Below are positions 7,492 to 61,632 of a stretch of 64,000 nt of DNA, in pieces (within the stretch, counting starts at the first letter, position 1; every line of letters begins with the position of its first letter). The position numbers and the translations under genes were made by a program. The stretch is from contig JAKAUC010000013.1 in assembly GCA_021827865.1 (NCBI GenBank), forward strand, positions 1 through 64,000, read 5' to 3'. Below the pieces are notes generated by a model. The model saw nothing but the letters and a program-made list of their open reading frames with translations. It was not told the origin of the DNA and did no database searches. This stretch comes from an archaeon. GTDB lineage: Archaea; Thermoproteota; Nitrososphaeria; Nitrososphaerales; Gagatemarchaeaceae.

Positions 7492-10400
7492 ATGTCCGCC
7501 CAGACCCAGGCACAGACCACCGGCCTCGCAGAGAAGCTGGCCGCGCTGACCAGGCCGGTGATGGAGGCGGACGAGTCCCTGCTCGCCTCCGCGGCCTACG
7601 ACGGGGACAGGCGGAAGGCGATACTGAAGCTCTACGACCAGAAGGCGGGGAGGTTCTGGCTCTGGGAGGACAACACCGGCCACCGCCCCTACTGCTTCAC
7701 CAGGCTCCCCATGGAGGAGCTTTCGGCGGTCAGGGCCCGCAAGGACGTGGTGGAGATCGTCGAGGAGGAGAAGCTCGACCTGCTCACTGACTCGAAGGCG
7801 AGGCTGAGGAAGATAGTCACCACCGACCCCCTCGCCATCGGCGGGGGGAACGACAGCATCCGCGACCAGATCAAGGCATGGGAGGCGGACATCAAGTACT
7901 ACGAGAACTACGCCTACGACCTCGGGCTCCGGATGGGGACCTACTACAGGGTGGCAGGGGGGAAGGTGGTCCCTGTCAAGCACCCGGCCCCCGAGACGGT
8001 CACCCGGTCCCTGGAAGAGGTCGCGCGCCGGGACCCCAAGGAGTTCCAGCCCTACCTGGAGGAGTGGGCAGAGCTGCTGTCAGAGCCCCTGGCGGACTTC
8101 CGCAGGGCCGCCCTGGACATAGAGGTGGCCAACGAGTCGGGGAGGCTCCCCGACGTCGAGGATCCGAAGCGGCCGGTCATAGCAGTCTCCTTCGTGAACG
8201 ACCACGAAAGGCTGGTCTACGTCCTGAGGTCGGGGAAGGGGACCGAAGGGCTGGACGCCGCCGGCTTCGCCTACGCTGTCTTCGAAAATGAGGAGGACCT
8301 GCTCCGGGCCGTCTTCGCCAAGATCATGGACTACCCGGTCCTCGTGACTTTCAACGGCGACGACTTCGACCTGCGTTACCTCCAGCACAGGGCGGAGCGC
8401 CTGGGCATAGCGGAGGAGGAGGACCCCATCCAGCTCGAGCGGGTGGCGGCGTCGCTCAAGCACGGGATACACATCGACCTCTACCAGTTCTTCAGGAACA
8501 GGTCGATCCAGGTGTACGCCTTCGGCAACAAGTACGCCGAGCACACCCTCAACGGCATATCCGAGGCCCTCCTCAACAGGTCCAAGATAGAGTTCGAGGG
8601 GGAGGTGGGGGACCTCCCACTGGCCGAGCTCGCGAAGTATTGCCTGAACGACTCGCAGCTGACCTACGACCTCACGTCCATGGGGGGGTCGGTGGTCATG
8701 AAGCTCCTGCAGGTGATCTCGAGGATAGGGAAGATGCCCATGAACGACGTCTCCAGGCTCGGGGTCTCCAACTGGATCAGGAGCATGCTCTTCTACGAGC
8801 ACAGGAAGATAGGGGCCCTCATCCCGAGGCAGGACGAGCTGACCGAGAAGGGGGGAGCGTCTTCCCAGGCCATAATCAAGGGGAAGAAGTACAAGGGGGG
8901 GTTCGTGATCGAGCCGAAGCCCGGGGTCTACTTCGACGTGTCCGTCCTCGACTTCGCCAGCCTGTACCCTAGCCTCATCAAGGTCCACAACCTGTCCTAC
9001 GAGACCGTCAACTGCACCCACCCGGAGTGCCGGGCCAACAAGATACCCGACACGTCATCCTGGGAGTGCACCAGGAGGAAGGGGATCGTGAGCCTCGTCA
9101 CCGGGTCGCTGAGGGACCTCAGGGTGGCGCACTACAAGCCTCTCACCAGAGACCAGAGCCTGTCCAAGGACGACCGCGACCTGTACAACGTGGTCTCCCA
9201 GGGGCTGAAGGTCTTCCTCAACGCGTGCTTCACCGGGGACACCTTCGTGGTCACCCCCCGGGGCGTCAGGAACATCAAGGAGATGAAGGTCGGGGACGAG
9301 GTCGTCAACGTAAATCCGAAGACACTGGAGGCGGAGGTCGACAAGGTCGTCGAAGTCCAGGCCTTCGCCTACGCCGGGGACCTCGTACACTTCAAGGACT
9401 CGGGTTTCGTGGACCTGATGGTCACCCCCAACCACAGGATGCTCACGGCGGACCGCCGCACCCCCCGGGGTTCCCCCGCCCTGTTCAGGACGGCCGAGGA
9501 AGTCGCCCGGCTGCCCAACATGTCCATACCGAAGCTGAAGGGCGGGGTCGAAGACCAGGCCCCTCAGCCCAAGGTGACGCTGCTCGACGCCGCGAAGCGG
9601 CTGGGGGCTTCCGCCAGCGTCCATCCTCCGGACCGAGAGCGGCTCGCCGACTGGCTCAGGACCCTCCCTGCAGCCCAGCGGAAGAAGCTAGGAGAGCACG
9701 GAGAGGCCTGCGAGGGCCGGGGGAGGGGGCGGCAGAGGCTCGGGCCGCACTGCAGGATCCCCGCCGGCTCCCTCGCCGACGAGGACGTGGACGCGATCCG
9801 GTCGTGCGGAGGCACCGTGCTGGTGGAGGAGCCCGGCCCCTCGATGATCCCGGTCAGCTTCGACGGGGTGGACTTCGCGTCGCTCTGCGGACGGTACGTC
9901 GGCGGAGGGTCGCAGCGTGCAGACCGGCCGGGGGTGCACCAGGACGGGGGGGACCGGGGCGGAGCCGCGTCGTTCGTAGTCTCCCAGGGGGGAGGGGGCC
10001 CCGGAGGGCTCGCCTTTGGGGGGGACGCAGGGCAGCTGCTCGAAAGGCTCGGCCTCCCCCTGGTCATGGAAGACAGCGAAAGTGGGCGCATCTGGGTCGC
10101 GAGCCCGGTACTCCGCGAGTGGATGGTCGAGCACTGCCAGGGCGGCGGGGCGAAGGCGCTCGACGCCACCGCGATGAAGGTCCCCAGCTTCGTGTACGAG
10201 CACGCCGGGACGGCGAGGGCGTTCCTGGCCACCGCCTGCAAGGGGGGCGGCGACTGGAGTGGGATGCGCTGTGCGACCCAGAGCCAGAGGCTCGCCGAGG
10301 GCATCGTCGTCCTCGCCGCCAGGCTCGGGATGAAGTCGAAGATGGAGTATGACGGCGAGACGTTCAGGGTCGCCTTCGGGAACGTGAGCTCCAGGCTGAC

Positions 10401-11331
10401 GCCCGCCGGGGGGGCAAGACGCGTCGAGAGGGTCCCCTACGAGGGGACGGTCTACTGCGTCACCACCGAAAGGAACCACACTGTCATGGCCGGAAGGAAC
10501 GGGAGGTTCGTCCACGTCGGCCAGTCCTACGGCGTCCTCGGCTTCGAGACGTTCGCGTTCTACTGCCTCCCGGTGGCCGAGGCAACGGCCGCCCTGGGCC
10601 GGGACGCGATCACGCGGACGATAGCGAGGTGCAACGAGCTGGGCGTCAAGGTCCTCTACGGCGACACCGACTCCACCTACCTCCAGAACCCCTCCAAAGA
10701 GCAGATCGCCACCATCATGAGCTGGACCAGGAGCGAGCTCGGCATCGACCTCGACCTGGACAAGGTCTACCGCTACGTTGCTTTCAGCAGCAGGAAGAAG
10801 AACTACTTCGGGGTGCTCCCCGACGGGACAGTCGACATACGCGGGCTGACGGGCAAGAAGTCCCAGACCCCGGAGTACCTGAAGCGCGTCTTCTACGAGA
10901 CCCTGGACATCCTTAGCAGCGTCAAGACCCCGGACGACTTCGAGCGGGCCAGGAAGAGCACCAGGGAGCTCCTCGCCAAGATGATATCAGACCTGAAGGG
11001 GAAGAAGGTCCCCGTCCAGGACCTCGCGTTCACCGTCATGATGGGCAAGCCGACCGACAAGTACAGCGGGACCACCCCCCAGCACGTCCGGGCCGCCATG
11101 CAGCTCGAGGAGAAGGGGGAGGAGATCAAGGCCGGGGAGATAATCGCATTCGTCAAGACCAAGAGCCCCCCCTACGTGAAGCCCGCCAAGCTCGCCAGGG
11201 GGGACGAGGTGGACGCCGACAAGTACATCGAGTACGCCCATTCCATGTTCGACCAGCTCCTCGACGCCCTGGACTTCTCCTTCGACGAGATAATGGGCGC
11301 TACGACCCTCGACCTTTTCTGGGGAGGGTAG
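7492..11331 (+). CDS. polB: Family B DNA polymerase with an in-frame intein
   Basis: A 1279-residue precursor; removing the intein (residues 579-1011) leaves an 846-residue replicative-type polymerase of normal length. The 3'-5' exonuclease motifs are intact: Asp209 and Glu211 (ALDIEV), TFNGDDFD and YCLNDSQ. The polymerase motifs are DFASLYPS (motif A), KVFLNA joined to SYG across the intein (motif B), and YGDTDS at 1056-1061 (motif C). The intein sits inside motif B, so the enzyme should be inactive until splicing. The gene is monocistronic with its own TATA-like box. Confidence 0.95.
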   Translation: MSAQTQAQTTGLAEKLAALTRPVMEADESLLASAAYDGDRRKAILKLYDQKAGRFWLWEDNTGHRPYCFTRLPMEELSAVRARKDVVEIVEEEKLDLLTDSKARLRKIVTTDPLAIGGGNDSIRDQIKAWEADIKYYENYAYDLGLRMGTYYRVAGGKVVPVKHPAPETVTRSLEEVARRDPKEFQPYLEEWAELLSEPLADFRRAALDIEVANESGRLPDVEDPKRPVIAVSFVNDHERLVYVLRSGKGTEGLDAAGFAYAVFENEEDLLRAVFAKIMDYPVLVTFNGDDFDLRYLQHRAERLGIAEEEDPIQLERVAASLKHGIHIDLYQFFRNRSIQVYAFGNKYAEHTLNGISEALLNRSKIEFEGEVGDLPLAELAKYCLNDSQLTYDLTSMGGSVVMKLLQVISRIGKMPMNDVSRLGVSNWIRSMLFYEHRKIGALIPRQDELTEKGGASSQAIIKGKKYKGGFVIEPKPGVYFDVSVLDFASLYPSLIKVHNLSYETVNCTHPECRANKIPDTSSWECTRRKGIVSLVTGSLRDLRVAHYKPLTRDQSLSKDDRDLYNVVSQGLKVFLNACFTGDTFVVTPRGVRNIKEMKVGDEVVNVNPKTLEAEVDKVVEVQAFAYAGDLVHFKDSGFVDLMVTPNHRMLTADRRTPRGSPALFRTAEEVARLPNMSIPKLKGGVEDQAPQPKVTLLDAAKRLGASASVHPPDRERLADWLRTLPAAQRKKLGEHGEACEGRGRGRQRLGPHCRIPAGSLADEDVDAIRSCGGTVLVEEPGPSMIPVSFDGVDFASLCGRYVGGGSQRADRPGVHQDGGDRGGAASFVVSQGGGGPGGLAFGGDAGQLLERLGLPLVMEDSESGRIWVASPVLREWMVEHCQGGGAKALDATAMKVPSFVYEHAGTARAFLATACKGGGDWSGMRCATQSQRLAEGIVVLAARLGMKSKMEYDGETFRVAFGNVSSRLTPAGGARRVERVPYEGTVYCVTTERNHTVMAGRNGRFVHVGQSYGVLGFETFAFYCLPVAEATAALGRDAITRTIARCNELGVKVLYGDTDSTYLQNPSKEQIATIMSWTRSELGIDLDLDKVYRYVAFSSRKKNYFGVLPDGTVDIRGLTGKKSQTPEYLKRVFYETLDILSSVKTPDDFERARKSTRELLAKMISDLKGKKVPVQDLAFTVMMGKPTDKYSGTTPQHVRAAMQLEEKGEEIKAGEIIAFVKTKSPPYVKPAKLARGDEVDADKYIEYAHSMFDQLLDALDFSFDEIMGATTLDLFWGG
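9226..10524 (+). other. PolB intein (433 residues, Cys1 ... Gln-terminal)
   Basis: Intein inserted between LNA and SYG of polymerase motif B. It begins with Cys1 (CFTGDTFVVTPRG, block A), has the TPNHRML block B histidine, and ends VYCVTTERNHTVMAG (block F) then FVHVGQ, with Ser as the +1 residue. The terminal residue is Gln rather than Asn and the penultimate is Gly rather than His, which is rare but known in functional inteins such as the Pyrococcus abyssi PolII intein (Gln end). A LAGLIDADG endonuclease region is present, but both motifs have glycine at the catalytic acid (LCGRYVGGG and LATACKGGG), so homing activity is probably lost. Confidence 0.9.
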
Positions 11332-11374
11332 CCGTTCAGCCTCGGGGGACCCGCGGGCGGCCCGGAGCGCTCGA

Positions 11375-11382
11375 TTTGTATA
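11375..11382 (+). promoter_or_regulatory. TATA-like box of the agmatine operon
   Basis: TTTGTATA is centred 27 nt before the TTG at 11406, which supports that codon over the upstream TTG at 11376 that lies inside the box. Confidence 0.5.
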
Positions 11383-11405
11383 GGGAGCGGGGGCTGGCTG
11401 GCCGG

Positions 11406-12251
11406 TTGGAGCAGGAGAAGGTCAGGCTGGGGCTGGTCCAGATGTCCATGGCCGAGGACAGGAGGGAGAACCAGAGGAAGGCGCACTGGTTCATCCGCGA
11501 AGCGGCGGCCCAGGGGGCGGAGATAGTCTGCCTCCCGGAGCTCTTCCACTCGCGCTACTTCCCCAGCAGGAGGGGGGCCTTCGAGAAGCCGGAGGAGATC
11601 CCGGGGCCGACGAGCAGGTGGCTCGCTGCGGCGGCGAAGGAGAGCAGGGTGATCCTCGTGGGCGGGAGCATCTTCGAGAGGGACGGACGGCGGAGGTACA
11701 ACACCTGCCTGGTCTACGACGAGAAGGGGAGGAGGGTCTCGAAGTACAGGAAGGTGCACATACCCCAGGACGAGCACTACTACGAGCAGGACTACTTCAG
11801 GCCGGGGGACAGGTACGCGGTCGCAAAGACCGCGAAAGGGAAGCTCGGTACGCTGATCTGCTTCGACCAGTGGTACCCCGAGGCGGCGAGGGTGAACAGG
11901 CTGATGGGCGCGGACATCATATTCTATCCGACGGCCATCGGCCGGGTGGAGGGGATTGACATGTCCGAGGGGGACTGGAGGCGGGCCTGGGAGGAGGTGC
12001 AGGTTGGTCACGCCATAGCCAACAGCGTGGTGGTCTGCGCGGTGAACAGGGTGGGGAAGGAGGGGCCCACCACCTTCTGGGGGGGATCCTTCGTGAGCGA
12101 CCAGTTCGGCAAGGTGCTCCTCAGGGCCGACGACAGCGAAGGCGCATTCACAGCCGACTGCGACCTCCGGCTGGGAAGGTCGATAGAGGAAGGCTGGGGG
12201 TTCCTCAGGAACAGGCAGAAGGGGACCTACGTCCCTATAGCGAAGCGGTGA
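11406..12251 (+). CDS. aguB: N-carbamoylputrescine amidase (nitrilase superfamily)
   Basis: A carbon-nitrogen hydrolase of about 281 residues with the complete Glu45-Lys116-Cys152 triad (CLPELF, YRKVHIPQ, LICFDQWYPE). The DQWYPE context after the cysteine and the HYYEQ-YF segment are typical of N-carbamoylputrescine amidase, which releases putrescine, CO2 and ammonia. The assignment is reinforced by the agmatine deiminase gene that follows directly with the stop and start regions overlapping (stop at 12249-12251). The TTG start is placed by the TATA spacing. Beta-ureidopropionase is the main alternative. Confidence 0.85.
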   Translation: MEQEKVRLGLVQMSMAEDRRENQRKAHWFIREAAAQGAEIVCLPELFHSRYFPSRRGAFEKPEEIPGPTSRWLAAAAKESRVILVGGSIFERDGRRRYNTCLVYDEKGRRVSKYRKVHIPQDEHYYEQDYFRPGDRYAVAKTAKGKLGTLICFDQWYPEAARVNRLMGADIIFYPTAIGRVEGIDMSEGDWRRAWEEVQVGHAIANSVVVCAVNRVGKEGPTTFWGGSFVSDQFGKVLLRADDSEGAFTADCDLRLGRSIEEGWGFLRNRQKGTYVPIAKR

Positions 12252-12253
12252 CC

Positions 12254-13282
12254 ATGCCGGAGACGCCAAGGTCGCTGGGCTACAGGATGCCCGCAGAGTG
12301 GGAGAAGCACGACGCCACCTGGGTGTCGTGGCCCAAGGACCCCGCCACGTTTCCGGCCGCGATACTCCCCAAAGTGGAAGCGGCCTATGTGAAGATGGTC
12401 GAGGCCCTCGCGGGGGGGGAGGAGGTTAGGGTCCTGGTCGACGACGGGAAGGCCGAGGCCAGAGTCTCAGGCATGCTCCGGCGGGCGGAGAGGGTCGCCT
12501 TCCACCGCATCAAGACCGTCGACGTCTGGACCAGGGACTACCTGGCGACCTGCGTCCGCGGGAGGGACGTCGCCTTGGTGAAGTGGGAGTTCAACGCTTG
12601 GGGGAACAAGTACGAAGACCTCCTCCCCGACGACGGGGCCGGGCGGGCGGTCGCCGAGGCTTCGGGCCTCCGGGTCTTCAACCCCGGGGTCGTCCTCGAA
12701 GGGGGGTCCATCGACTCCGACGGCGAAGGGACGATACTCACCACGGAGCAGTGCCTCCTCAACCCCAACAGGAACCCCCGGCTGGGGAGAGCCGGCCTGG
12801 ACAGGGTGCTGGCGGACAACCTCGGCGCCGAGAAGGTCGTCTGGCTGAAGAGCGGGATCGAAGGGGACGACACCGACGGGCATGTGGACGACATCGCCAG
12901 GTTCGTCGCCCCGGGGACAGTCGCCGTGGCTTCGGAGGGGGACGCCGGGGACCCGAACCGGGAGGCCCTCGAGGCCGACGCGCGGCTCCTCGAGGCCGGG
13001 CGGGACGCGAAGGGGCGCCCCCTCAAGGTCGTAAGGATCCCGATGCCCCCCAGGGCCGACGGGCCGGACGGGAGGCTCCCGGCTAGCCACCTGAACTTCT
13101 ACATAGGGAACAGGGGGGTGCTTGTCCCCACCTTCGGCGGAGAGAGCGACAGAGCTGCCCTGAGGTCCGTCGGGGAGGCGTTCCCGACCCGGGAAGTGGT
13201 CGGCATAGACTGCAGGGCCCTGGTCTACGGGCTGGGGACCATCCACTGCGTGACCCAGCAGGTCCCTGCCGCTCACCGGTGA
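12254..13282 (+). CDS. aguA: Agmatine deiminase
   Basis: A 342-residue peptidyl-arginine-deiminase-family enzyme that converts agmatine to N-carbamoylputrescine. Key elements are the N-terminal MPAEWEKHDATWVSWP, DVWTRDY with its catalytic/guanidinium-binding acid, DDTDGHVDD with the catalytic histidine, and the C-terminal nucleophile in GTIHCVTQQ. ATG at 12254 was used; an in-frame GTG at 12248 overlaps the aguB stop and is equally possible. With aguB it forms a two-step route to putrescine. Its 3' end overlaps convergent thrS by 10 nt. Confidence 0.93.
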   Translation: MPETPRSLGYRMPAEWEKHDATWVSWPKDPATFPAAILPKVEAAYVKMVEALAGGEEVRVLVDDGKAEARVSGMLRRAERVAFHRIKTVDVWTRDYLATCVRGRDVALVKWEFNAWGNKYEDLLPDDGAGRAVAEASGLRVFNPGVVLEGGSIDSDGEGTILTTEQCLLNPNRNPRLGRAGLDRVLADNLGAEKVVWLKSGIEGDDTDGHVDDIARFVAPGTVAVASEGDAGDPNREALEADARLLEAGRDAKGRPLKVVRIPMPPRADGPDGRLPASHLNFYIGNRGVLVPTFGGESDRAALRSVGEAFPTREVVGIDCRALVYGLGTIHCVTQQVPAAHR

Positions 13283-14973
13283 GAGGAGACTTCTCCCTTG
13301 ACCTTGGCCACGAAGTCGTCGACCTTGACCCCGAAGGTCTGCTCCCCGGACCTCGTCCTGACGGCCACGGTCCCCGAGTCCTCTTCCTTCTTCCCCACCA
13401 CCAGCATGTAGGGTATCTTCTGGAGCTGGGCGTCGCGGATCTTCCCCCCCATGGTCCCGCTGGCGAAGTCCCCATCCGCCCTCACCCCCGAAGAGACAAC
13501 CGATTCGAGGACCGACCTGGCGTAGCCCAGGTGCTCGTCGGAGAGGGGTATGACACGCGCCTGGACAGGGGAGAGCCAGACGGGGAGCGACCCCCGGTAA
13601 TGCTCGAGGAGGACCCCCATGAACCGCTCCAGCGACCCGAGTATCGTCCTGTGGAGGACCACTGGGAGGTGCTCCTTGCCGTCCGACCCGGTGTAGCTCA
13701 GCTTGAACCTCTTCGGCATCTGGAGGTCGAGCTGGAAGGTCCCGCACTGCCACTCCCTCCCCAGGGAGTCCTTGACGTCGACGTCTATCTTGGGGGAGTA
13801 GAAGTTCCCCTCCTTCTCCTTGATCTCGTAGGCCCACCCTCTCGACTTCACGACCCGGATCAGGGTGTCAGTGGCCCGCGCCCACTCCTCGTCGGTCCCC
13901 ATGGAGTCGTCGGGCCGGGTCGATATCTTGACCTTGTACTGCAGGCCGAAGGTGCCGTACACCCTCTCCATCATCTCGAGCATCTTGGCCAGCTCCCCCT
14001 CCGCCTGCTCCTCCGTGGCTATGATGTGGGCGTCGTCCTGGCTGAGCGACTTCACCCGGAACAGCCCGCTCGCCACCCCGCTCAGCTCGTTCCTGTATAG
14101 GGGGTCGAAGGCGGCGTACCTTACCGGGAGCTCGCGGAAACTCCATTTTCGCGACCTGTAAATCAAGAAGTGCGACGGGCAGTTCATGGGCTTGAGCCCC
14201 AGCTCCTCGTCCCCCAGGGCGGTCAGGAACATGTTGTCCTTGTAGTGGGCAGAGTGGCCGCTCACCTGCCAGAGGGCGGTGTTGGCCAGGGTGGGGGTGC
14301 TGACCTCCTGGTACCCTCCCCTGAGGAGCTCCCCCCGGAGGAAGTCCACCAGCAGGTTCCTCAGCACCAGCCCCTTGGCGTGCAGGTACACCATGCCTGG
14401 GGAGACCTCCTGGAAGCTGAACAGGTCCAGGCGCTCCCCGATGGTCCTGTGGTCCCCGTCCGGGAGGCCGACGAAGTCGCTCCGCCTGAGCCGGGCCATG
14501 GCCTCCGCTTCGGTCAGCTCGCGCCTCGGCTTCGCCATGGGCTGCGGCTGGGCGGGGGCTGCCCCGGACGAATAGCTCCTCGACATCTCGGCCAGCGGGT
14601 GCCCCTTCACTTTGATCTGCAGCGCCTTGGTCCACCCGAAGGGGGCCCTCCGCACCTCTAGGCCGGCCCCGAGGGCTTCCTTCTCCATCTGCAGGAGGAG
14701 ACCCAGCGCCTCGGCCGGGGGCGCGAGGTTCTGGCTCAGGTGGGCGAAGGGGTAGACCATCACCCTCTTCGTCCCGAGCTTCGCGAGGAACTCCTTCAAC
14801 TCGGACACGGCCTGCTTCACGACCCCGGCGTCGTCCCCGCCCTCGAAGGCGGTGAACAGCACCACGATCCCCTCCTCCCTGACCGTCCGGGGCTCGATCT
14901 CCTCGGCGGCGCGTATCTCCTTCTTGACCGGGGTGTACTCTATGAAGTCGGCGTGCATCTGCAGTATCTTCAT
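13273..14973 (-). CDS. thrS: Threonyl-tRNA synthetase (archaeal type)
   Basis: A 566-residue class II synthetase. The N-terminal ~140 residues (MKILQMHADFIEY...) are the archaeal editing domain related to D-aminoacyl-tRNA deacylases, which clears mischarged Ser-tRNA. The catalytic core shows LKPMNCPSHF with the zinc-site cysteine, the motif 2 region (FRVKSLSQDDAHI) and motif 3 (VVLHRTILGSLERF). A C-terminal anticodon-binding domain follows. The gene is 7 nt downstream of a small zinc protein and probably shares its promoter. Confidence 0.95.
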   Translation of the reverse strand: MKILQMHADFIEYTPVKKEIRAAEEIEPRTVREEGIVVLFTAFEGGDDAGVVKQAVSELKEFLAKLGTKRVMVYPFAHLSQNLAPPAEALGLLLQMEKEALGAGLEVRRAPFGWTKALQIKVKGHPLAEMSRSYSSGAAPAQPQPMAKPRRELTEAEAMARLRRSDFVGLPDGDHRTIGERLDLFSFQEVSPGMVYLHAKGLVLRNLLVDFLRGELLRGGYQEVSTPTLANTALWQVSGHSAHYKDNMFLTALGDEELGLKPMNCPSHFLIYRSRKWSFRELPVRYAAFDPLYRNELSGVASGLFRVKSLSQDDAHIIATEEQAEGELAKMLEMMERVYGTFGLQYKVKISTRPDDSMGTDEEWARATDTLIRVVKSRGWAYEIKEKEGNFYSPKIDVDVKDSLGREWQCGTFQLDLQMPKRFKLSYTGSDGKEHLPVVLHRTILGSLERFMGVLLEHYRGSLPVWLSPVQARVIPLSDEHLGYARSVLESVVSSGVRADGDFASGTMGGKIRDAQLQKIPYMLVVGKKEEDSGTVAVRTRSGEQTFGVKVDDFVAKVKGEVSSHR

Positions 14974-14980
14974 TGCCGCC

Positions 14981-15184
14981 CTACCAACGCGACCTTTCCA
15001 GCGTCCTCGACTTCTTCGTCGCCTTCTTCCACTGCTTGTAATGGTCGCGGCAGAGGTACACCCTCCGTCCCTCCCCTCCGACCGCGAGCCCGCTCCCGCC
15101 CATGTCCTCCCTGCTGATGGACCGCTCCGCCTGGTTCTTGCAACCGGTCACTCCGCAGCCTACGCCCTTGTCTATCTTCCCCAA
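14981..15184 (-). CDS. Small zinc-binding protein, conserved-looking, unknown role
   Basis: A 67-residue protein with CGVTGCKN near the N-terminus and a C-x2-H pair (YLCRDHYKQWKK) later, so a probable four-ligand zinc site, followed by a strongly basic tail. The function is not known to me. It is the first gene of an operon with thrS, 7 nt ahead of it, and its ATG lies 29 nt from the centre of a palindromic TATA box. A translation- or RNA-related role is a guess from position and charge only. Confidence 0.65.
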   Translation of the reverse strand: MGKIDKGVGCGVTGCKNQAERSISREDMGGSGLAVGGEGRRVYLCRDHYKQWKKATKKSRTLERSRW

Positions 15185-15209
15185 GGCAACCGACTCCGCC
15201 CCCCTTTGG

Positions 15210-15217: not shown

Positions 15218-15240
15218 GAAAAGGGGGAGACCGCTGAGTC

Positions 15241-16566: not shown

Positions 16567-16591
16567 TGGGTTGGGTCACCTGGCTTGCTTT

Positions 16592-49545: not shown

Positions 49546-49555
49546 AGGTGATAAC

Positions 49556-54111: not shown

Positions 54112-54149
54112 GCAGTAACTTTTACCTAACGAATCGGGGGCCGGCCCGT

Positions 54150-54167
54150 GCAATACATATGCGTTGC
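54150..54167. promoter_or_regulatory. Interrupted 18-bp palindrome between divergent transporter-region genes
   Basis: The pattern GCAA-NN-CATATG-NN-TTGC lies between the minus-strand membrane gene and the ABC ATPase. It is symmetric at 14 of 18 positions and is a possible operator. Confidence 0.4.
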
Positions 54168-54257
54168 TTCAAGGGGTCGGTGAGCTCCGGCGACCCTAAA
54201 TGGCGGACCCCGGGCCCTCGATAAACGTATAACGGAACCTCGTCGGGAGTCGCTGGT

Positions 54258-55043
54258 TTGGCGCAGGATCAGGCGCAGGCCGCACTGAGGGACACAGTGG
54301 TCACGGTGGACCACGTCAGCCTCGACTACAGGAAGGAGAAGGAGCCGCTCGCCGTGCTGGTCGACGTGTCTCTGAAGGCCGGGAAGGACGAGCTGGTCGC
54401 CATCACCGGCCCCTCGGGGTGCGGAAAGTCGACGCTCCTCAGGATCGTGTCGGGGCTCGTCAGGCCCACGGCAGGCACGGTGAAGGTGCTGGACTCCGAA
54501 GTCAAGGGTCCGAGGGAGGACATAGCGATGGTCTTCCAGAACTTCGTCCTCCTGCCATGGAGGACGTCGCTGGAGAACGTCCTGTTCGGGCTTGGGTCGC
54601 GGAAGGACCTCACGGAGGAGCAGAAGGCCGAGAAGGCGAAGGCGGCCCTCGACGTCGCCGGGCTGTCCGGCTTCGAGAACGTCTACCCGGGCGAGCTCTC
54701 TGGCGGGATGAAGCAGAGGGTGGGGGTCGCCAGGGCCCTGGCCACCGAGCCCAGGGTGATGCTCCTGGACGAGCCTTTCAGCTCCCTCGACGACCTCACC
54801 GCCGAGCGCCTGAGGAAGGAGACCTACACCCTCCTGATAAACCCCCAGAGCTCGGTCCAGTCCGTCATACTCGTCAGCCACAACGTCGAGGAGATCATCG
54901 AGCTCGCTGACAAGGTTGTGGTCCTCTCCGGGAGGCCCGCCCACGTCGTCGGGGAGCTCGAGGTCACGCTCCCCAGGCCCAGGAACAAGAAGTCCGAGGA
55001 GTTCTTCCAGTGGGTCGACAGGGTGTACACGCTGCTATCATGA
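54258..55043 (+). CDS. NitT/TauT-type ABC transporter ATP-binding protein
   Basis: A 261-residue ABC ATPase. Walker A is GPSGCGKSTLL, the Q-loop is MVFQNFVLLPW, the signature is LSGGMKQRVGVARAL, Walker B is VMLLDEPFSSLD, and the H-loop is LVSHNVEE. The sequence style matches nitrate/sulfonate/taurine importers. The TTG start follows TATA-like ATAAACGTATAA by about 27 nt. It is followed by an AAA-associated domain protein and is the likely partner of the fused permease at 50.6-52.1 kb. Confidence 0.9.
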   Translation: MAQDQAQAALRDTVVTVDHVSLDYRKEKEPLAVLVDVSLKAGKDELVAITGPSGCGKSTLLRIVSGLVRPTAGTVKVLDSEVKGPREDIAMVFQNFVLLPWRTSLENVLFGLGSRKDLTEEQKAEKAKAALDVAGLSGFENVYPGELSGGMKQRVGVARALATEPRVMLLDEPFSSLDDLTAERLRKETYTLLINPQSSVQSVILVSHNVEEIIELADKVVVLSGRPAHVVGELEVTLPRPRNKKSEEFFQWVDRVYTLLS

Positions 55044-55096
55044 GCCCCGGTGTTCACCTTAAATCACCTGCCCTGGCGCAGAGGCGACCGGTGTAG

Positions 55097-55618
55097 TTGA
55101 CCGAGATTCCAAGGCCGCTACCGACAGCCCTCATGATGCCAGGCAACGTCAGGGCGGGCCAGGTCATCAGCCTGGTGGAGATTGCCGGGAGCATCGGAGG
55201 CAGGGTAGACGTCCCGAAGCTCGCGGACGAGCTGGGGGCGGACATAGCCGTCCTCCTCCCGATATTGGACGCCGCCGAGATGCTCGGCCTCGTGAGGACT
55301 GAGAAGGGGGACGTGCTCCTGACTGAGCTCGGGCTGAAGTTCCAGAAGACGACGAGGAACAAGGTGATGATGCTGAAGGACAGGGTCGCCACCATCGAGC
55401 CGTTCCGCACGGCCCTGGAGCTGGCGTCCAAGGAGAGGGTGATCACAGCCCGTGAGGTCGCCGACTCGCTGTCGGAGATCGGGCTGAAGTGGCACTTCAA
55501 GCCTGACCTCAACGAGGCCCTGGTCCGCACACTGCTCATACACTGGGCCATCTACGCCGACCTGCTGGGCTACGACGGCAAGTCGGGGAAGTTCAGGAAG
55601 GCTCAGCCCAAGCCGTAG
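55097..55618 (+). CDS. AAA-associated domain protein of the ABC transporter
   Basis: A 173-residue protein matching the domain found C-terminal to some NitT-type ATPases (AAA_assoc_C-like). It opens with IPRPLPTALMMPGNVRAGQ, cited by segments, and has a winged-helix-like DVPKLADELGADIAVLLPIL followed by helices. Here it is a separate gene, 53 nt after the ATPase, with its own TATA-like TTAAATC about 35 nt before the TTG. It may regulate the ATPase in response to a ligand. It overlaps the convergent amidohydrolase by 16 nt. Confidence 0.78.
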   Translation: MTEIPRPLPTALMMPGNVRAGQVISLVEIAGSIGGRVDVPKLADELGADIAVLLPILDAAEMLGLVRTEKGDVLLTELGLKFQKTTRNKVMMLKDRVATIEPFRTALELASKERVITAREVADSLSEIGLKWHFKPDLNEALVRTLLIHWAIYADLLGYDGKSGKFRKAQPKP

Positions 55619-57129
55619 GAGTGGGCGAGCGACCCGTCCACGACGGTCGCCAGGGGCTTCACGTTCCTGAAGAGCGCGGGGTGCATCCCCGCCACCGCTG
55701 TGTCAAGGAGGGTCAGGTCCGCGGGCTCCCCTTCGGCGAAGGCTCGGTCGTCTAGACCGTTGGAGGCCGCCTTGGAGGTGTACATGTCAAGGGCTTCGTC
55801 CAGCCCGATGGACTCCTCGGGGACGATCCCTCCCCTGGTCATGGCGGACCAGACCCCCAGCACCGGGTTGAGGGACTCGACAGGGCAGTCGGAGCCCCCC
55901 GAGGCGACCAGCCCCTCGTCGAGCATGGAGCGGAAGGGGTAGAGGTCGCGAATCCTGTCCCCGCCGAGCCTCCCCACAGCCCAGGTGTCCGTAGTGACGA
56001 AGCAGGGCTGGACCGCGGCCCTGATGCCGTGCTTCGCCATCTTCGAGCGGAGGTCCCTGGGGAGGAGCCCCGCGTGCTCGATCCTGTGCCTCCTGGGGTT
56101 GTTGGCCCCGGTCACCTTCGAAAGCGCCCCGATGGTCTGCTCGACCGCCCTGTCCCCGATGGCGTGGACGATGGCCTGGTACCCCAGGGAGTCGACCCTC
56201 TCCACCAGGGAGGCGAGCTCCCCGTCCCCGTACCTGAGGAGCCCGGAGTTCGAGGGGTCGTCGGCGTAGGGCTCCCTCAGGGCGGCGGTCCTCGCCCCCA
56301 GTGACCCATCGGTGAATATCTTCACGCCGTTGATCCTCGCCTTGGGCCCCGAGAGCTTCGCCCTGAGCCCCTTTTCCTCCACGTACCCCAGGGACTCCGG
56401 GGGGACGTAGACCATGTGCCTCAGCGCGAGCCTCCCCGCCGATGCGAGGAGTGAGATCGCGGCGAGCTCTTCGCGGAACCCCTCCGGGGAGACGATGGTG
56501 TGGAGGGCGGTCAGCCCCAGGCGCGCCCCCTCGGTCTCCACAGACTGGAGGTCCGCGGCGACCCCCTCCGCGGTCCTCGGGATCCCCCCGTAGACCTCGG
56601 TGAGGGCATCCTCCTTCACGATCCCGGTCAGCTCCCCCGCGGTGTCCCGCTCGAAGAGCGGGCCCGTCCTCGACCCAAGGCCGAGAAGGCGGATGGCGGC
56701 GCTGTTGACCAGGGCTATGTGGCCGCAGACCCTGGACACGGCGACAGGGTTTGAGGCCGAGATGTCGTCGATGTCGTACCTGGTGGGCATCCTCCTGTCT
56801 GGGAACGCCTCCTGGTCCCAGCCCATCCCCACGACCCAGTCCCCCGGCTTCGCCCTGAGGACCCCCGCCTGGATCCGCAGGCGGAGGGCGACGACGTTGC
56901 TCGCCCCGCGGAGGTCGACGTTCCTCTTCAGCCAGCCGTACTCGAAGGGGTGGCAGTGGGTGTCGACGAGCCCCTGGAGGACTGTCCCCCCGTTGGCGTC
57001 GACCACCGCTGCGTCCGCCGGGACCTCGGGCTCCCCTCCGCGGTATATCCTCGCGATGCGCCCCTGTTCGCAGTAGACGGCCCCGTTGGACGAGTCGAGG
57101 AAGGTGCAGTTCTTCAGCAGGAGCCCCAT
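55603..57129 (-). CDS. Amidohydrolase family 3 (YtcJ-like) metal-dependent hydrolase
   Basis: A 508-residue amidohydrolase: the first metal site is GLVDTHCHPFEYG (H-x-H), the central lysine region ARINGVKIFTDGSLG, the second histidine group IVHAIGDRAVEQ and HRIEHAGLL, and the distal aspartate SGGSDCPVESLNP. These are hallmarks of YtcJ/N-substituted-formamide deformylase-like enzymes; the substrate is not known. ATG overlaps the cofC stop as TGATG, so it is translationally coupled to the F420 genes, which is unusual company. Confidence 0.85.
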   Translation of the reverse strand: MGLLLKNCTFLDSSNGAVYCEQGRIARIYRGGEPEVPADAAVVDANGGTVLQGLVDTHCHPFEYGWLKRNVDLRGASNVVALRLRIQAGVLRAKPGDWVVGMGWDQEAFPDRRMPTRYDIDDISASNPVAVSRVCGHIALVNSAAIRLLGLGSRTGPLFERDTAGELTGIVKEDALTEVYGGIPRTAEGVAADLQSVETEGARLGLTALHTIVSPEGFREELAAISLLASAGRLALRHMVYVPPESLGYVEEKGLRAKLSGPKARINGVKIFTDGSLGARTAALREPYADDPSNSGLLRYGDGELASLVERVDSLGYQAIVHAIGDRAVEQTIGALSKVTGANNPRRHRIEHAGLLPRDLRSKMAKHGIRAAVQPCFVTTDTWAVGRLGGDRIRDLYPFRSMLDEGLVASGGSDCPVESLNPVLGVWSAMTRGGIVPEESIGLDEALDMYTSKAASNGLDDRAFAEGEPADLTLLDTAVAGMHPALFRNVKPLATVVDGSLAHSYGLG

Positions 57130-57758
57130 CAGCCGACCGCCGTCCGCGAGAAGCGAGCCGCCCGGCCGGTCGAGCCGGAGGTGGCCAGGCCCCTGAAGTC
57201 GTCTGGGGAGTCGATGTCCAGCATTATCCCGGGCCTCGTGCTGACCCCGACCGAAAGCCCCATCGCCGCTGCCGAGGCCAGGTGGTTCCAAAAGCTGTTG
57301 CGGTCGTAGCTCAGCTGGAGCCCGGCGTCAGCCCGGAAGAGGAGGGCGTTGGTCCCGTCGAAGGCGACGGAGGGCGAGATCACCACGTCGGCCCCTCTGT
57401 CCGCGAGCCCGATGACAGCCTGGATGTCGGCCGGGGCAAGGAGAGGGAGGTCGGAGGGGAGCACCAGGAGCCGCTCCGCCCGGCTCGCCCTGGCCCCCGC
57501 CTCCACGGCGTCGTTCACCCCGGAGTCTGCTTCCTCTGGGACCCCCCTGGCTCCGCGTCGCTCGGCCAGGTCGAGGACCCCACGGTCGGAGGAAACGACG
57601 AAGCACCGCTCTGCGAGCCCCGCCCCCGCCAGGGCGGCGAGGACGTCCTCAAGCAGCAGCCTCCCGAACTCCGCCCTCTGGTCCGGGGCGAGGACGCTGG
57701 ACAGCCTGGACTTCCCCGCCGACGACTTCACCGGTATCACCACGGCCAGACCTGTCAT
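57129..57758 (-). CDS. cofC: 2-phospho-L-lactate guanylyltransferase
   Basis: A 209-residue nucleotidyltransferase. It begins AVVIPVKSSAGKSRLSSVL (guanylate-binding loop) and contains LLVLPSDLPLLAPADI with metal-binding acids and SPSVAFDGTNALLF. It makes lactyl-diphospho-guanosine (or a phosphoenolpyruvate equivalent) for F420 synthesis. ATG overlaps the cofD stop (ATGA) and its own stop overlaps the amidohydrolase start, so it is the third gene of a tightly coupled cofE-cofD-cofC unit. Confidence 0.9.
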   Translation of the reverse strand: MTGLAVVIPVKSSAGKSRLSSVLAPDQRAEFGRLLLEDVLAALAGAGLAERCFVVSSDRGVLDLAERRGARGVPEEADSGVNDAVEAGARASRAERLLVLPSDLPLLAPADIQAVIGLADRGADVVISPSVAFDGTNALLFRADAGLQLSYDRNSFWNHLASAAAMGLSVGVSTRPGIMLDIDSPDDFRGLATSGSTGRAARFSRTAVG

Positions 57759-58666
57759 GCCGCAAGCACCTCCCTGGCGACCCTCGCCTCGCCAGCCGGG
57801 CCGCTCATCATCGTGTCTGTGGTGACGCAGGCCAGCCCCATCCCCCGGATCTCCTGGCTCAGCCCCGCGTCCCTGTCGGAGACTACTATCGCGTCAGCGA
57901 ACCTCGAGTACAGCTTCGCCACCCCGAGGGAGCTGGGCGGAGCCTTGGTCGCCTCCATCAGCTTCCCCGCAGGACCGCTGAAGGGGGACCTCCCGACCAT
58001 GGGGGAGAGGGCGACCACCCTCCTGGCCGACCTCAGGAGCCTGACGAAACCCGGGACGGCGAGAGAGGGGCCGACGCTGGTGACTGGGTTCGCGGGGCAG
58101 ACGACCACGATGTCCGCCTTCTCTACCGCCTCCCTGACCCTGGCGGTAGGTCTCGCCCGGGCGGAGCCCAGGTACCTGACCCCCAGGGCCCGGGGGCGGC
58201 CCTTCTCCCTGACCCAGAACTCCTGCAGGTTGAGCTCCCCTCCCGGGGTGGAGATGACTGTCTGGACCGGCTCGTCGCAGGCGGGGAGGACGGCGCACCC
58301 GGTCCCGAGCCTTTCCGCTATCGCCTCCGTCGCCCTGGTCAGGGTGAGCCCCTCTCTGAGCATCTGGGTCCGGGCGAGGCAGGTCGCCAGGTCCCTGTCG
58401 CCGAGCTTGAACCAGGTCTCAGTCCCGGCCCGGGCCATCAGGTCAAGCATGCGGAACGTGTCCCCCCTGATCCCCCAGCCCCTGGTCCGGTCGGCTATCC
58501 CGGCGAGGGTGTAGCAGGCGATGTCGACGTCTGGGCAGACGTAGACCCCGTAGATCCAGGCGTTGTCCCCTACGTTGGCCACGACGGTCAGCTCAGCCCC
58601 CTGCGCCTGGAGCCCCCGGAGCAGCTTAGCCGAGCCCGTCCCTCCGGCCAGGGCGACCACCCTCAT
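57755..58666 (-). CDS. cofD: 2-phospho-L-lactate transferase (F420-0 synthase)
   Basis: A 303-residue CofD-family enzyme: MRVVALAGGTGSAKLLRGL at the N-terminus binds the activated lactyl-nucleotide, and NVGDNAWIYGVYVCPDVD and VCPANPVTSVGPSL are characteristic internal motifs. It joins the lactyl moiety to Fo to make F420-0. It lies 4 nt after cofE and overlaps cofC by ATGA. Confidence 0.93.
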   Translation of the reverse strand: MRVVALAGGTGSAKLLRGLQAQGAELTVVANVGDNAWIYGVYVCPDVDIACYTLAGIADRTRGWGIRGDTFRMLDLMARAGTETWFKLGDRDLATCLARTQMLREGLTLTRATEAIAERLGTGCAVLPACDEPVQTVISTPGGELNLQEFWVREKGRPRALGVRYLGSARARPTARVREAVEKADIVVVCPANPVTSVGPSLAVPGFVRLLRSARRVVALSPMVGRSPFSGPAGKLMEATKAPPSSLGVAKLYSRFADAIVVSDRDAGLSQEIRGMGLACVTTDTMMSGPAGEARVAREVLAA

Positions 58667-58670
58667 GGGC

Positions 58671-59420
58671 TCACCTGAACAGGTCCCTCTCCCTGGGCAT
58701 GACGATGGGCGCCACCCCCGTCTCTGCCCTGGAGTAGCTCGCCCCCCTGACGACCGCCACGGGGATCCCTCCCAGCTTCCCCAGGGCGAGCTCGGCGGCC
58801 CCGGCTATCTCGTCGACCACGGCCGGCTGGGTCACCCGCAGCCTGTAGCCGAACCTGTCCCGCTTGCTCGCGTAGCGGACGAAGGGGTCGATGCCTGAGC
58901 ACCCTATGGCGACGTCCGTCTGGCCCAGCCTCCAGGGGCGCCCGAAGGTGTCGGTTACCACCACGGCGACCTCCGCCCCCGAGCCCTTCTCGAGGGCGGC
59001 CCTTATCCCCCTGGCGCTCCTGTCGGAGTCCTCGGGGAGGAGGGAGGCGACCCCCTTCCCGACGTTCGACTGGTCTACCCCGGAGTTGGCGCAGACGAAG
59101 CCGTGCCTTGTCTCCGTGATTATCACGCCGTGCCCCGCCCGGACGACCCTCACCGACTCCCTCAGTATGAGCTCGACGAGGCGCTCGTCCTTCCCCTGGG
59201 ACTTCGCCAGCCGCTTCGCCCTGGCGGAGGGGACGACGTCGGCCAGGCTGACGAGCCGCCCCTCGGCCTTGGAGACCACCTTCTGCTTCACCACCACGAC
59301 GTCCCCGTCCTTCAAGCGCAGCCGGTTCCTCTGCAGCGCCGAGGAGATGAGGGCGCCCAGGTCCTCCCCCGGCTTCACCTCCGGGAGCCCGGGGACCGGG
59401 ATCACTTCTATGCGGTTCAC
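58671..59420 (-). CDS. cofE: Coenzyme F420:gamma-L-glutamate ligase
   Basis: A 249-residue CofE protein that adds glutamates to F420-0. It shows IEVIPVPGLPEVKPGEDLG, KVVSKAEGRLV, the metal/GTP-site HGFVCANSGVDQSNV, and DTFGRPWRLGQTDVAIG, all typical. The GTG at 59420 was chosen because it lies 33 nt from a TATA-like box and gives the normal N-terminus; the open frame upstream is unsupported. First gene of the cof operon. Confidence 0.93.
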   Translation of the reverse strand: MNRIEVIPVPGLPEVKPGEDLGALISSALQRNRLRLKDGDVVVVKQKVVSKAEGRLVSLADVVPSARAKRLAKSQGKDERLVELILRESVRVVRAGHGVIITETRHGFVCANSGVDQSNVGKGVASLLPEDSDRSARGIRAALEKGSGAEVAVVVTDTFGRPWRLGQTDVAIGCSGIDPFVRYASKRDRFGYRLRVTQPAVVDEIAGAAELALGKLGGIPVAVVRGASYSRAETGVAPIVMPRERDLFR

Positions 59421-59448
59421 TTTGCCGCGCGGCGCATCCGGCGGGTGC

Positions 59449-59457
59449 GATAAATGC
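59449..59457 (-). promoter_or_regulatory. TATA-like box of the cof operon
   Basis: The minus strand reads GCATTTATC, centred 33 nt before the cofE GTG at 59420. Confidence 0.5.
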
Positions 59458-59472
59458 TCTGCCCGGGGTAGG

Positions 59473-59480
59473 AAATTTAA
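59473..59480 (+). promoter_or_regulatory. TATA-like box of the Mrp-ATPase gene
   Basis: AAATTTAA is centred about 30 nt before the TTG at 59506 and supports that start over the longer open frame, which overlaps cofE. Confidence 0.5.
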
Positions 59481-59505
59481 GGGCCCGGCGGAGGCTCGCG
59501 TCGGA

Positions 59506-61632
59506 TTGGTCACCAGGGAAGAAGTTCTCAGGGCGCTCGCCGGGGTCAAGGACCCTGAGCTGGGGAGGGACGTGGTATCGCTCCGCATGGTGGACGGCGT
59601 CGAGGTAGACGGGGACAGGGTCGCGTTCACGCTCAACCTCACCACCCCGGCCTGCCCGCTTAGGTCGAGGCTCGAGGAAGCGGCCAGGGCCGCGGTCGCG
59701 GGGATCCCGGGGGTGAAGCATGTGGAGATGAAGACGGGGTCGAGCGTCTATGCGACCAGGGACTATGCTGAGGCGGAGGTCCTCAGGGGGGTGAAGAACA
59801 TCATAGCCGTCGCCAGCGGGAAGGGAGGGGTCGGGAAGTCGACGGTGGCGGTCAACCTGGCCTGCGCCCTGGCTGCGACGGGGGCGAAGGTGGGGATACT
59901 CGACGCGGACGTCTACGGCCCCACCATACCACTCATGATGGGGGCGAAGTCCCAACCGGAGGTGAGGGACGAGAAGGTGATCCCACCCGTCGCCCACGGG
60001 GTAAAGGTCGCCTCCCTCGGATTCTTCTACAACGAGGAGACGCCGGTGATCTGGAGGGGGCCCCTGGTGGCCGGGGCCGTGAGGCAGCTCCTCACCCAGG
60101 TGGATTGGGGGGAGCTCGACTACCTTGTCTGCGACATGCCGCCGGGCTGCCTTCCGGCGGGGACGAGCATACTGATGGCGGACAACTCCACGAAGCCCAT
60201 CGAGAAGGTGGAGGTCGGAGAGTTCTTGCTCAGCTACGACGGCCAGAGCCTCGTCCCCCGTCGTGTCCTGGGCACCGTCCCCCAGGGAGAGCAGGAGGTC
60301 TTCAGGCTGAGGGCCGGGGACCGCGAGATAGTCGCGAGCGCGAACCACCCGTTCCTCAGTCGCCATGGCACGAGCCGCTGGGTCAGGCTCGACCAACTGA
60401 GAGCGGGGGACAGGGTGGTTGTGCCCAACTGCGTCAGCGGAGGGCAGCCCCTGCGGCTCCCGAAGGCGGGGTCCGACCCGGAGGTCGTCCAGCTCCCTGG
60501 GGAGACCACGGCTGACTTCATGCGGGTCGTAGGGCATTTCGTCGCCGGCGGCTCTCTGACGCGCCGGAGAGGTGGGGAGCGCCCTGTCGGGTTGAGGCTG
60601 CGCCAGCGCCGGGGGACCAGGTTCAGGAAGACCCACGAGGGGCTCTACATGAAGGTCTTCAAGGGCCCCGTCTTCGACGACGACGGCGGACCGGGGCTCG
60701 CCGTAGCGTCCCCCCCTCTGGCCGAACTGTTTGAGGCCCTCGACCTGGACCACAAGGCCCGGGAGAGGTCTGTCCCCCGCTGGATCTTTACGCTCCCCCT
60801 GGACCAGAGGCTGGCGTTCATACGCGGATACGCAGAGGCCGGCGCGGTCATCAGACGCCGGGAGTCGACCAGGTCTCTTCCCGGCCGGAATGGGATGGAG
60901 GGCGCGGTGACCGTGGTGCAGGAGACGGCGACCGTCGAGGGCCCGAACGCGGCCTTGGCAGACAAGTTCCGTGAGCTTTGCGCCATAAGCGGGGTCAGAT
61001 CCACGAAGCCCCGTCTCCGCGGCGGACAGAGGCTCCCCGAGGGGAGGACAGGGTCGGGCGCCGCCGGTCGCAGATTCCAGTTCGCCCTGGAGCATGACCC
61101 ACGGCCGTTCAGGTTCGCCAGGGTCCAGTCCGTCGAACCCATGGGGCGCGCGGATACCTACGACCTGCAGGTCGACCAGTACGAGAACTTCGTCGCCAAC
61201 TCCATCCTGGTACACAACACCGGGGACGCCAGCCTCACCCTCGCGCAGACCGTCCCCCTCGGGGGGATCCTGATAGTCACCACCCCCCAGGACGCGGCGC
61301 TGAGCATAGCTGCCAAGGCCCTCGCCATGTTCAAACGCCTCGACGCCCCCATACTCGGGGTGGTCGAGAACATGAGCTACTTCGTCTGCCCTCACTGCGG
61401 CGAGCGGACCGACATCTTCTCGAGCGGCGGGGGGAAGAAGATCGCCGCTGAGAGGGGGGTCGACTACCTGGGGGAGATACCCCTGGCCGTCGCTGTGAGG
61501 GAGCAGAGCGACAGGGGGGAGCCCGTCGTCGCCTCGGACCCGGACTCGCCTGAGTCCATGGTCTACAAGGAGCTCGCGTTCAAGGTGGCCGGGATGCTCA
61601 GCATCGTCGCCTACTCCAAGATGAAGAAATGA
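59506..61632 (+). CDS. Mrp/NBP35-type Fe-S carrier ATPase with an in-frame intein
   Basis: A 708-residue precursor; removing the intein (residues 215-571) gives 351 residues, the normal size for an Mrp/ApbC protein. The N-terminal ~90 residues are a MIP18/DUF59 domain (PELGRDVVSLRMVDGV, TTPACPLRSRLE). The ATPase has deviant Walker A GKGGVGKSTVAVNLA, DADVYGPTIP, and DMPPG joined to TGDASL across the intein. The C-terminal CPHC pair binds the Fe-S cluster at the dimer interface. It delivers Fe-S clusters to apoproteins. Leaderless TTG start. Confidence 0.93.
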   Translation: MVTREEVLRALAGVKDPELGRDVVSLRMVDGVEVDGDRVAFTLNLTTPACPLRSRLEEAARAAVAGIPGVKHVEMKTGSSVYATRDYAEAEVLRGVKNIIAVASGKGGVGKSTVAVNLACALAATGAKVGILDADVYGPTIPLMMGAKSQPEVRDEKVIPPVAHGVKVASLGFFYNEETPVIWRGPLVAGAVRQLLTQVDWGELDYLVCDMPPGCLPAGTSILMADNSTKPIEKVEVGEFLLSYDGQSLVPRRVLGTVPQGEQEVFRLRAGDREIVASANHPFLSRHGTSRWVRLDQLRAGDRVVVPNCVSGGQPLRLPKAGSDPEVVQLPGETTADFMRVVGHFVAGGSLTRRRGGERPVGLRLRQRRGTRFRKTHEGLYMKVFKGPVFDDDGGPGLAVASPPLAELFEALDLDHKARERSVPRWIFTLPLDQRLAFIRGYAEAGAVIRRRESTRSLPGRNGMEGAVTVVQETATVEGPNAALADKFRELCAISGVRSTKPRLRGGQRLPEGRTGSGAAGRRFQFALEHDPRPFRFARVQSVEPMGRADTYDLQVDQYENFVANSILVHNTGDASLTLAQTVPLGGILIVTTPQDAALSIAAKALAMFKRLDAPILGVVENMSYFVCPHCGERTDIFSSGGGKKIAAERGVDYLGEIPLAVAVREQSDRGEPVVASDPDSPESMVYKELAFKVAGMLSIVAYSKMKK
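60148..61218 (+). other. Mrp intein (357 residues)
   Basis: Inserted between DMPPG and TGD of the conserved nucleotide-binding switch. It starts with Cys1 (CLPAGTSILMADNS), has the block B ASANHPFLS histidine, and ends DTYDLQVDQYENFVAN-SILVHN with the standard His-Asn end and Thr +1. The LAGLIDADG endonuclease region is recognisable (RVVGHFVAGGSLTRR; LAFIRGYAEAGAVIRR), but each motif has glycine where the metal-binding acid belongs, so homing is probably lost. Splicing motifs are intact. Confidence 0.9.

Follow-up and report, generated by a model that had tools for sequence, protein, structure and literature searches.

What has become of two inteins that interrupt separate genes within one window of an archaeal genome, both with glycine in place of the catalytic acids of their LAGLIDADG endonucleases, and does the likeness between them point to a coordinated event? 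The window, by which we mean the whole 64 kb stretch of DNA that was analyzed, is the first part of a 527 kb contig (C20), has a GC content of 65.9% and belongs to a draft genome (G000 hereafter) of 1.94 Mb in 20 contigs with a completeness of 99.24% and an estimated contamination of 7.47%. Genomes of the Gagatemarchaeaceae are given as 54-62% GC in PMC10640624, in the main text of which the word 'intein' occurs 0 times. The features that bear on the question are as follows:

7492-11331, plus strand: family B DNA polymerase (PolB) gene, PRK05761-type, split by an intein (NF004417, 1.8e-297)
7492-9225 and 10525-11331, plus strand: N-extein and C-extein of PolB
9226-10524, plus strand: PolB intein, 433 aa, with Cys1, a Gly-Gln end, Ser at +1 and GC3 of 0.90
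9424-9435, plus strand: splicing block B of the PolB intein, T-P-N-H, kept (T67, P68, N69 and H70 invariant)
9883-9909, plus strand: LAGLIDADG motif 1 of the PolB intein, LCGRYVGGG; position-8 codon GGA at 9904-9906, Glu in eight of nine other copies
10225-10251, plus strand: LAGLIDADG motif 2 of the PolB intein, LATACKGGG; position-8 codon GGC at 10246-10248, Asp in eight of nine other copies
10450-10524, plus strand: C-terminal splicing blocks F and G of the PolB intein (VYCVTTERNHTV...VGQ); Gly-Gln end in all ten aligned copies
about 59500-61632, plus strand: Mrp/ApbC (NUBPL-type) P-loop ATPase gene, split by an intein; start codon approximate
60148-61218, plus strand: Mrp intein, 357 aa, with Cys1, a His-Asn end, Thr at +1 and GC3 of 0.86 (0.8599)
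60526-60552, plus strand: LAGLIDADG motif 1 of the Mrp intein, VVGHFVAGG; position-8 codon GGC at 60547-60549, Glu in G026, G036 and G030, Cys in G021
60820-60846, plus strand: LAGLIDADG motif 2 of the Mrp intein, IRGYAEAGA; position-8 codon GGC at 60841-60843, Asp in G026, G036 and G030, Ala in G021
61156-61218, plus strand: C-terminal splicing blocks F and G of the Mrp intein (TYDLQVDQYENFVANSILVHN); TIGR01443, 1.1e-8

Intein splicing blocks comprise a Cys or Ser at position 1, a block B of the TxxH type, an Asn or Gln at the end and a Cys, Ser or Thr at +1, and both inteins display them in profile matches and aligned blocks. The boundaries first read from the sequence prove exact: the PolB intein lies in polymerase motif B, with the junctions LNA/CFTGDT...HVGQ/SYGV, and the Mrp intein lies between PPG and TGDA of the ATPase, with the junctions PPG/CLPAGT...LVHN/TGDA. 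Both are in-frame inserts at conserved sites of their host proteins, the exteins joining at LNA/SYG and PPG/TGDA. The TIGR01443 profile is over its cut-off for the two alike; TIGR01445 exceeds its cut-off for the PolB intein only together with its neighbours (24.2 and 24.8 bits), and for Mrp it falls short (18.9 bits). The PolB intein retains 63 of the 65 invariant Hint columns, and the Mrp intein retains its splicing blocks, going by the alignment and the TIGR01443 match. On these features both probably still splice. The Gly-Gln end with a Cys in block F (10450-10524) makes a non-canonical C-terminus, which is common to the ten copies of the PolB family and the PolB intein of Halorutilus.

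The sequence-only reading had placed glycine at position 8 of both motifs in both inteins, and the orthologues bear this out, live copies having Glu and Asp there. Nine other copies of the PolB intein were found among 60 other genomes. Eight of them have Glu (GAA/GAG) and Asp (GAT/GAC) at position 8 in the same ungapped columns; the ninth, from a genome of a different genus (G035), carries Gly and Ser at the acid positions and a shortened endonuclease. The same-site inteins in thaumarchaeal MAGs (G023, G016 and others) are 42-53% identical to that of the window and share its Cys1, Gly-Gln end and +1 Ser. These three features recur in the PolB intein of Halorutilus salinus (L223, 3001-4173), which at 32% identity lies far outside the thaumarchaeal family and, like the eight copies, keeps both acids, whereas G000 and G035 have lost them. 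For the Mrp intein there are four other copies, one of them partial (G030), with Glu and Asp in G026, G036 and G030, and Cys and Ala in G021. The motif alignments of both sets of orthologues are ungapped, and the acids have not shifted to a neighbouring column; the Asp that follows PolB motif 2 (KGGGD) aligns with a Ser. Both inteins contain a two-motif LAGLIDADG domain inside the Hint domain, as seen in the orthologue alignments of both and, for PolB, also in predicted helices and fold matches; neither has the acid at position 8 of both motifs that marks an active LAGLIDADG (DOD) endonuclease. As a loss of function, the loss of the acids goes beyond chance, and cleavage by both endonucleases has presumably gone. 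The claim that the acids were lost while reading frames and splicing blocks stayed intact is supported by these alignments and, for PolB, by the retained Hint columns. That the glycines are errors of assembly or sequencing is hardly credible: the source is a draft with an estimated contamination of 7.47%, yet four separate codons and many further endonuclease changes would have to be wrong, G035 (PolB) and G021 (Mrp) lack the acids at these sites as well, and both inteins lie on a single contig.

A genome labelled as the same species (G069) was set aside as a same-species control and is of no use as a population test. Its PolB, only 77-83% identical, lacks an insert there (the matches to query residues 48-580 and 1012-1125 are adjacent, leaving no room for the 433-aa intein), and its Mrp gene was not found in an assembly that is 62% complete. 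A pattern search of the fetched loci for an intein-free PolB junction gave no match.

Have only the catalytic residues changed, or the endonuclease domain at large? As pS is 0.61-0.68 between G000 and the nearest PolB copies, dS is near saturation, and we used pN and relative rates in place of dN/dS. With three outgroups, the relative rates of G000 against G023 in PolB are 42:17, 48:10 and 45:12 for the endonuclease and 13:5, 10:8 and 13:5 (not significant) for Hint; against G016 the endonuclease gives 36:19, 45:13 and 44:15, and the excess of change is also seen in the linker. The pN values for endonuclease and Hint are 0.389 and 0.153 between G000 and G023, and 0.266 and 0.132 between G023 and G016. 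Of the invariant columns, the G000 PolB intein retains 31 of 46 in the endonuclease and 16 of 24 in the linker, while live copies retain 0.85-0.96 in the endonuclease. For Mrp, the relative rates of G000 against G036 are 47:9 in the endonuclease and 27:12 in Hint, those of its sister G021 are 49:15 and 16:12, and G000 against G021 gives 15:4 in Hint; the pN values are flat (0.272 for the endonuclease and 0.266 for Hint between G000 and G036) and lend no support to relaxed constraint. In PolB, then, the endonuclease is fast and the splicing domain is not, whereas in Mrp the splicing domain is faster too, if less so than the endonuclease. A relaxed endonuclease beside a constrained Hint domain, the signature of degeneration, is present in PolB and weaker in Mrp; since the Mrp Hint domain is also fast and pN is flat, the case for decay there rests more on the lost acids.

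The AlphaFold2 model of the PolB intein (mean pLDDT 81.7, pTM 0.84) has a confident Hint domain and both LAGLIDADG helices (214-227 and 327-338), with pLDDT below 50 at 236-246, 255-265 and 340-344; a model of the Mrp intein was set aside (four sequences, mean pLDDT 61). In Foldseek the best solved matches of the PolB model are full inteins with an endonuclease (2cw7, 7qsu and the degenerate 7qst), the nearest folds being PI-PkoII and the VMA inteins of Thermococcus litoralis and Pyrococcus horikoshii. The best of these, PI-PkoII (2cw7; E 2.7e-18, TMq 0.54), which we take to be the intein endonuclease of Thermococcales PolB and an active enzyme, shares the Hint domain and two-motif LAGLIDADG fold at only 14% identity. 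A PDB sequence search with the PolB intein gave weak matches only. Pfam LAGLIDADG_3 has no match in either window intein; one live copy of each (G023 PolB and G026 Mrp) does match, below the cut-off of the profile.

The sequence-only reading had further proposed that the endonucleases were switched off while the scaffold was kept, and one might suppose that the scaffold serves a second use, such as stabilizing the splicing domain, in keeping with the mutualism that PMC8966425 proposes for some inteins. The full-length open frames, the predicted PolB helices and the fold matches to full inteins lean that way. Against this, the open frame is imposed by the downstream extein, for which reason it is little evidence of a kept scaffold; the altered invariant columns of PolB are concentrated in the endonuclease (15 of 46) and linker (8 of 24) as opposed to Hint (2 of 65); the aligned endonuclease segment of the G035 copy is down to 129 residues from 178; two inteins of G000 do without any endonuclease; and the pLDDT of the PolB model drops below 50 in three stretches. 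With the two helices still predicted, a kept scaffold is weakly supported, and a second use for it is unlikely. Catalytically dead LAGLIDADG proteins can also take other roles, and the domain could in principle now be a non-cutting DNA-binding protein. This seems very improbable, given that the net charge of the G000 PolB endonuclease segment, another mark against a conserved scaffold, is -3 as opposed to +6 to +15 in live copies, and that the model has its lowest confidence just past motif 1.

We favor the reading that both are LAGLIDADG inteins that have long resided in a GC-rich host and have reached the phase of the homing cycle in which the endonuclease decays, and consider it very probable. 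In that cycle, as set out in PMC1654191 and PMC8966425, the endonuclease is selected only while the intein spreads and then decays, while splicing is always selected. Here, the splicing residues would be under constant selection because PolB and Mrp depend on excision, and the endonuclease that formerly spread the intein, no longer selected, would drift during long residence in one lineage. A close precedent is PhoVMA of Pyrococcus horikoshii (7qst), an archaeal LAGLIDADG intein without active-site acids which PMC8966425 reads as homing-cycle degeneration. As in the window inteins, the active-site residues are missing from both motifs but present in orthologues, and PhoVMA is the third-best fold match of the PolB intein. 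It differs in host gene and site, and in that one of its acids went when Block E was shortened by one turn (PMC8966425), whereas all four positions in the window are substituted to Gly. The window inteins are, in this respect, further examples of a known decayed kind and represent an ordinary late stage of intein life; inteins with a dead endonuclease are well known.

As to whether the acids were lost independently, as had been claimed, this is supported between PolB and Mrp, though within Mrp the loss was probably inherited from an ancestor common to G000 and G021. The two pair in a four-row intein tree (100/100) and less firmly in one of the extein flanks (84/85), the endonucleases of both are fast, and the Cys codon of G021 (TGC) is one base from Gly GGC and three from GAA; these together place the loss, on present sequences, probably before the G000/G021 split. 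The extein flanks of multi-intein genes can contain parts of neighbouring inteins, which adds noise to extein GC3 and to the extein tree and probably accounts for the long branches of G034 and G036 in it, so that we place little weight on that tree. For PolB, a tree of the whole intein groups the lost copies of G000 and G035 weakly (75/96) and a Hint-only tree places G000 with G023 and G016 (90/93); a single loss common to G000 and G035 is thereby only weakly suggested.

If long residence is the cause, it might be legible in base composition. The homing cycle predicts the death of the endonuclease after fixation, and GC3 offers an independent, sequence-only measure of residence against which that prediction can be held. 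G000 has at least 14 inteins, found by three family searches and gene reading, of which two lack an endonuclease and 12 are two-motif. Among these 12, PolB (GC3 0.90, exteins 0.94-0.95) and Mrp (0.86, extein 0.91) have the two highest values, the others ranging over 0.64-0.80; the chance that the dead pair holds the top two places is 1 in 66, for a pattern noticed afterwards. The endonuclease-less MoxR intein has a GC3 of 0.93 in an extein of 0.93. By the gap to the local extein, live RadA, NuoB_b and NuoI_a2 are as close as PolB and Mrp, on account of the lower GC3 of their own exteins.

We surveyed the wider archaeal family in two sets. The first comprised 100 stretches, mostly the top of the matches listed (46 genomes), to which G000 itself and the orthologues of PolB and Mrp were added, and yielded 136 inteins, of which 129 in 38 genomes are two-motif and 7 without two motifs were set aside. 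Left out were the rows of G006, a near-duplicate of G013, and those of G068:C172 and G034:C64, as well as 12 N-terminal matches without a paired C-terminus (13 were listed, GGR among them being a manual addition). MetK and NuoB_a of G000 are further manual additions, the motifs of I009, I010 and I050 were assigned manually (with uncertainty over the second one of I010), and motifs one residue short (e.g. LKGCFGDG) were read at position 7. The later set comprised 39 stretches, 19 completing G035, G012, G004 and G021, and 20 further rows; 35 inteins were extracted and two matches were not, and 26 inteins were counted after nine without a clear two-motif domain were set aside. This set is not blind, as 19 of the 39 stretches were taken from four genomes in which losses were already known, and motifs were read with GC3 in view.

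Both acids are intact in 110 inteins of the first set, one is lost in 8 and both in 11. At a GC3 cut of 0.86, picked after looking at this set and leaving the Mrp intein (0.8599) just under, acid loss affects 11 of 11 inteins at or above the cut versus 8 of 118 below it. The later set gives 4 of 5 versus 3 of 21, and the 155 inteins combined 15 of 16 versus 11 of 139. G035 contributes 11 of the 16 high-GC3 inteins; the figures are 5 of 5 versus 11 of 139 without it, and 4 of 4 versus 9 of 128 without both G035 and G000. Compared by insertion site, lost copies have the higher GC3 at 15 of 17 sites (Wilcoxon 0.0007) and the smaller absolute gap to the extein at 16 (Wilcoxon 0.00008); some gaps are tiny, and at 7 of the 17 no genome other than G035 has a lost copy. 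In a genome-stratified permutation over the five first-set genomes that have lost as well as kept inteins, the values are 0.0006 (GC3) and 0.02 (gap). The GC3 of the splicing domain alone separates lost from kept equally (AUC 0.79; gap 0.82), and relaxed selection on endonuclease codons is therefore not the cause of the pattern.

Might GC pressure by itself kill endonucleases in GC-rich hosts, regardless of age? Lost inteins do adjoin exteins of higher GC3 (median 0.91 versus 0.81, AUC 0.74), and the replacements run in the mutational direction. Nonetheless, next to first-set exteins of GC3 at or above 0.88, loss affects 12 of 13 inteins with an own GC3 of at least 0.84 and 0 of 16 with a lower one (2 of 3 versus 1 of 6 in the later set), and in the AT-rich G033 the inteins, host-like in composition too, have all lost acids or lack an endonuclease. 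We consider this account improbable. The common cause of decay and compositional match would rather be time since acquisition.

The rule has its exceptions. Losses occur at ordinary GC3 (0.64-0.78) in G008 L255, G012 L232, three inteins of G013 and one each of G024 and G028, and NuoB_a of G000 has lost one acid at 0.78; the host-like G035 L225 keeps both acids, as do G021 I039 and G007 L259 at 0.84. These fit recent loss or slow decay, yet limit the rule equally.

Two genomes stand out in the survey. In G035 (L100, L152, L181, L211, L225-L227), 10 of 11 two-motif inteins, at GC3 of 0.88-0.93, have lost an acid; its PolB gene holds three of them, and one further intein has no endonuclease domain. 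In the AT-rich G033 (L123, L131, L151, L207; extein GC3 about 0.41-0.48), five inteins of AT-like composition were found, both two-motif ones acid-less and three others without two motifs. This suggests that some lineages exit the homing cycle as a whole.

It is evenly balanced, in our estimate, whether base composition is a usable residence clock in the broad sense that acid loss in this archaeal family is largely predicted by the third-position convergence of an intein on its host, that the stage in the homing cycle can be read from sequence, and that entire genomes (G035 and G033) exit the cycle as one, as would be expected if gene exchange with intein-free relatives had ceased for the lineage. 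If true, the wider pattern of the smaller compositional gap in lost copies could matter. A narrow look at the open-licence literature found no test of composition against endonuclease decay, composition and GC terms occurring 0 times in term searches of PMC4071816, PMC3229294 and PMC13405050. We regard the association as moderately interesting in what is otherwise an ordinary object.

There remains the glycine in all four positions, for which the sequence-only reading had proposed one A-to-G change per codon and had seen novelty in the coordinated pattern. The former fits PolB motif 1 (GAA to GGA) and Mrp motif 2 (GAC to GGC), while PolB motif 2 took one or two changes (GAC/GAT to GGC) and Mrp motif 1 two (GAA to GGC). 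Across the family the 40 replacements (30 in the first set and 10 in the later) are Gly in 20 cases, Ala in 8, Lys and Arg in 3 each, Asn in 2, and Ser, Cys, His and Gln in one each; without the four of the window Gly is still the commonest, at 16 of 36. Gly and Ala, which result when the second base of GAN changes to G or C, make up 17 of the 21 replacements in first-set inteins of GC3 at or above 0.82 (13 of 17 without the window), and the AT-rich G033 has Ala, Arg and Lys. In a GC-rich genome, the catalytic GAN codons would most easily turn into GGN (Gly) or GCN (Ala), and with GAN to GGN favored by mutation bias, Gly at position 8 would arise without a coordinated switch. With independent positions, four Gly out of four would come up about 4% of the time, and Gly/Gly occurs in 2 of 12 other doubly lost inteins, making the pattern only mildly unusual.

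Within G000 itself, too, coordination finds no support. Aside from PolB and Mrp, which lost both acids, its two-motif inteins comprise NuoB_a, with Gln in motif 1, and nine with both acids intact; a genome-wide loss of intein endonucleases is ruled out by these nine of ten, and with Gly the commonest replacement in the family, coordination is not supported by the sequences and would not be needed for the two losses. NuoI and NuoB are each present twice, on C13 and C9 (L032, L034; L030, L036), every copy with inteins, so that some G000 inteins may stem from a contaminant, and assembly contamination may explain the paired copies. One NuoI has two inteins, and at the same site one copy holds a mini-intein where the other has a full intein.

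In the Walker A motif of a MoxR-type ATPase, a 183-aa mini-intein (GC3 0.90-0.93) is present at the same site in L037 (G000), L236 (G004), L229 (G012) and L252 (G022), and full-length inteins in G018, G016, G061 and G021. Finally, the contig of the window also bears L035 (G000 C20:428643-428894), a LAGLIDADG open frame of 213 aa that stands on its own; each of its motifs has an acid, and from the surroundings as read it is not an intein.
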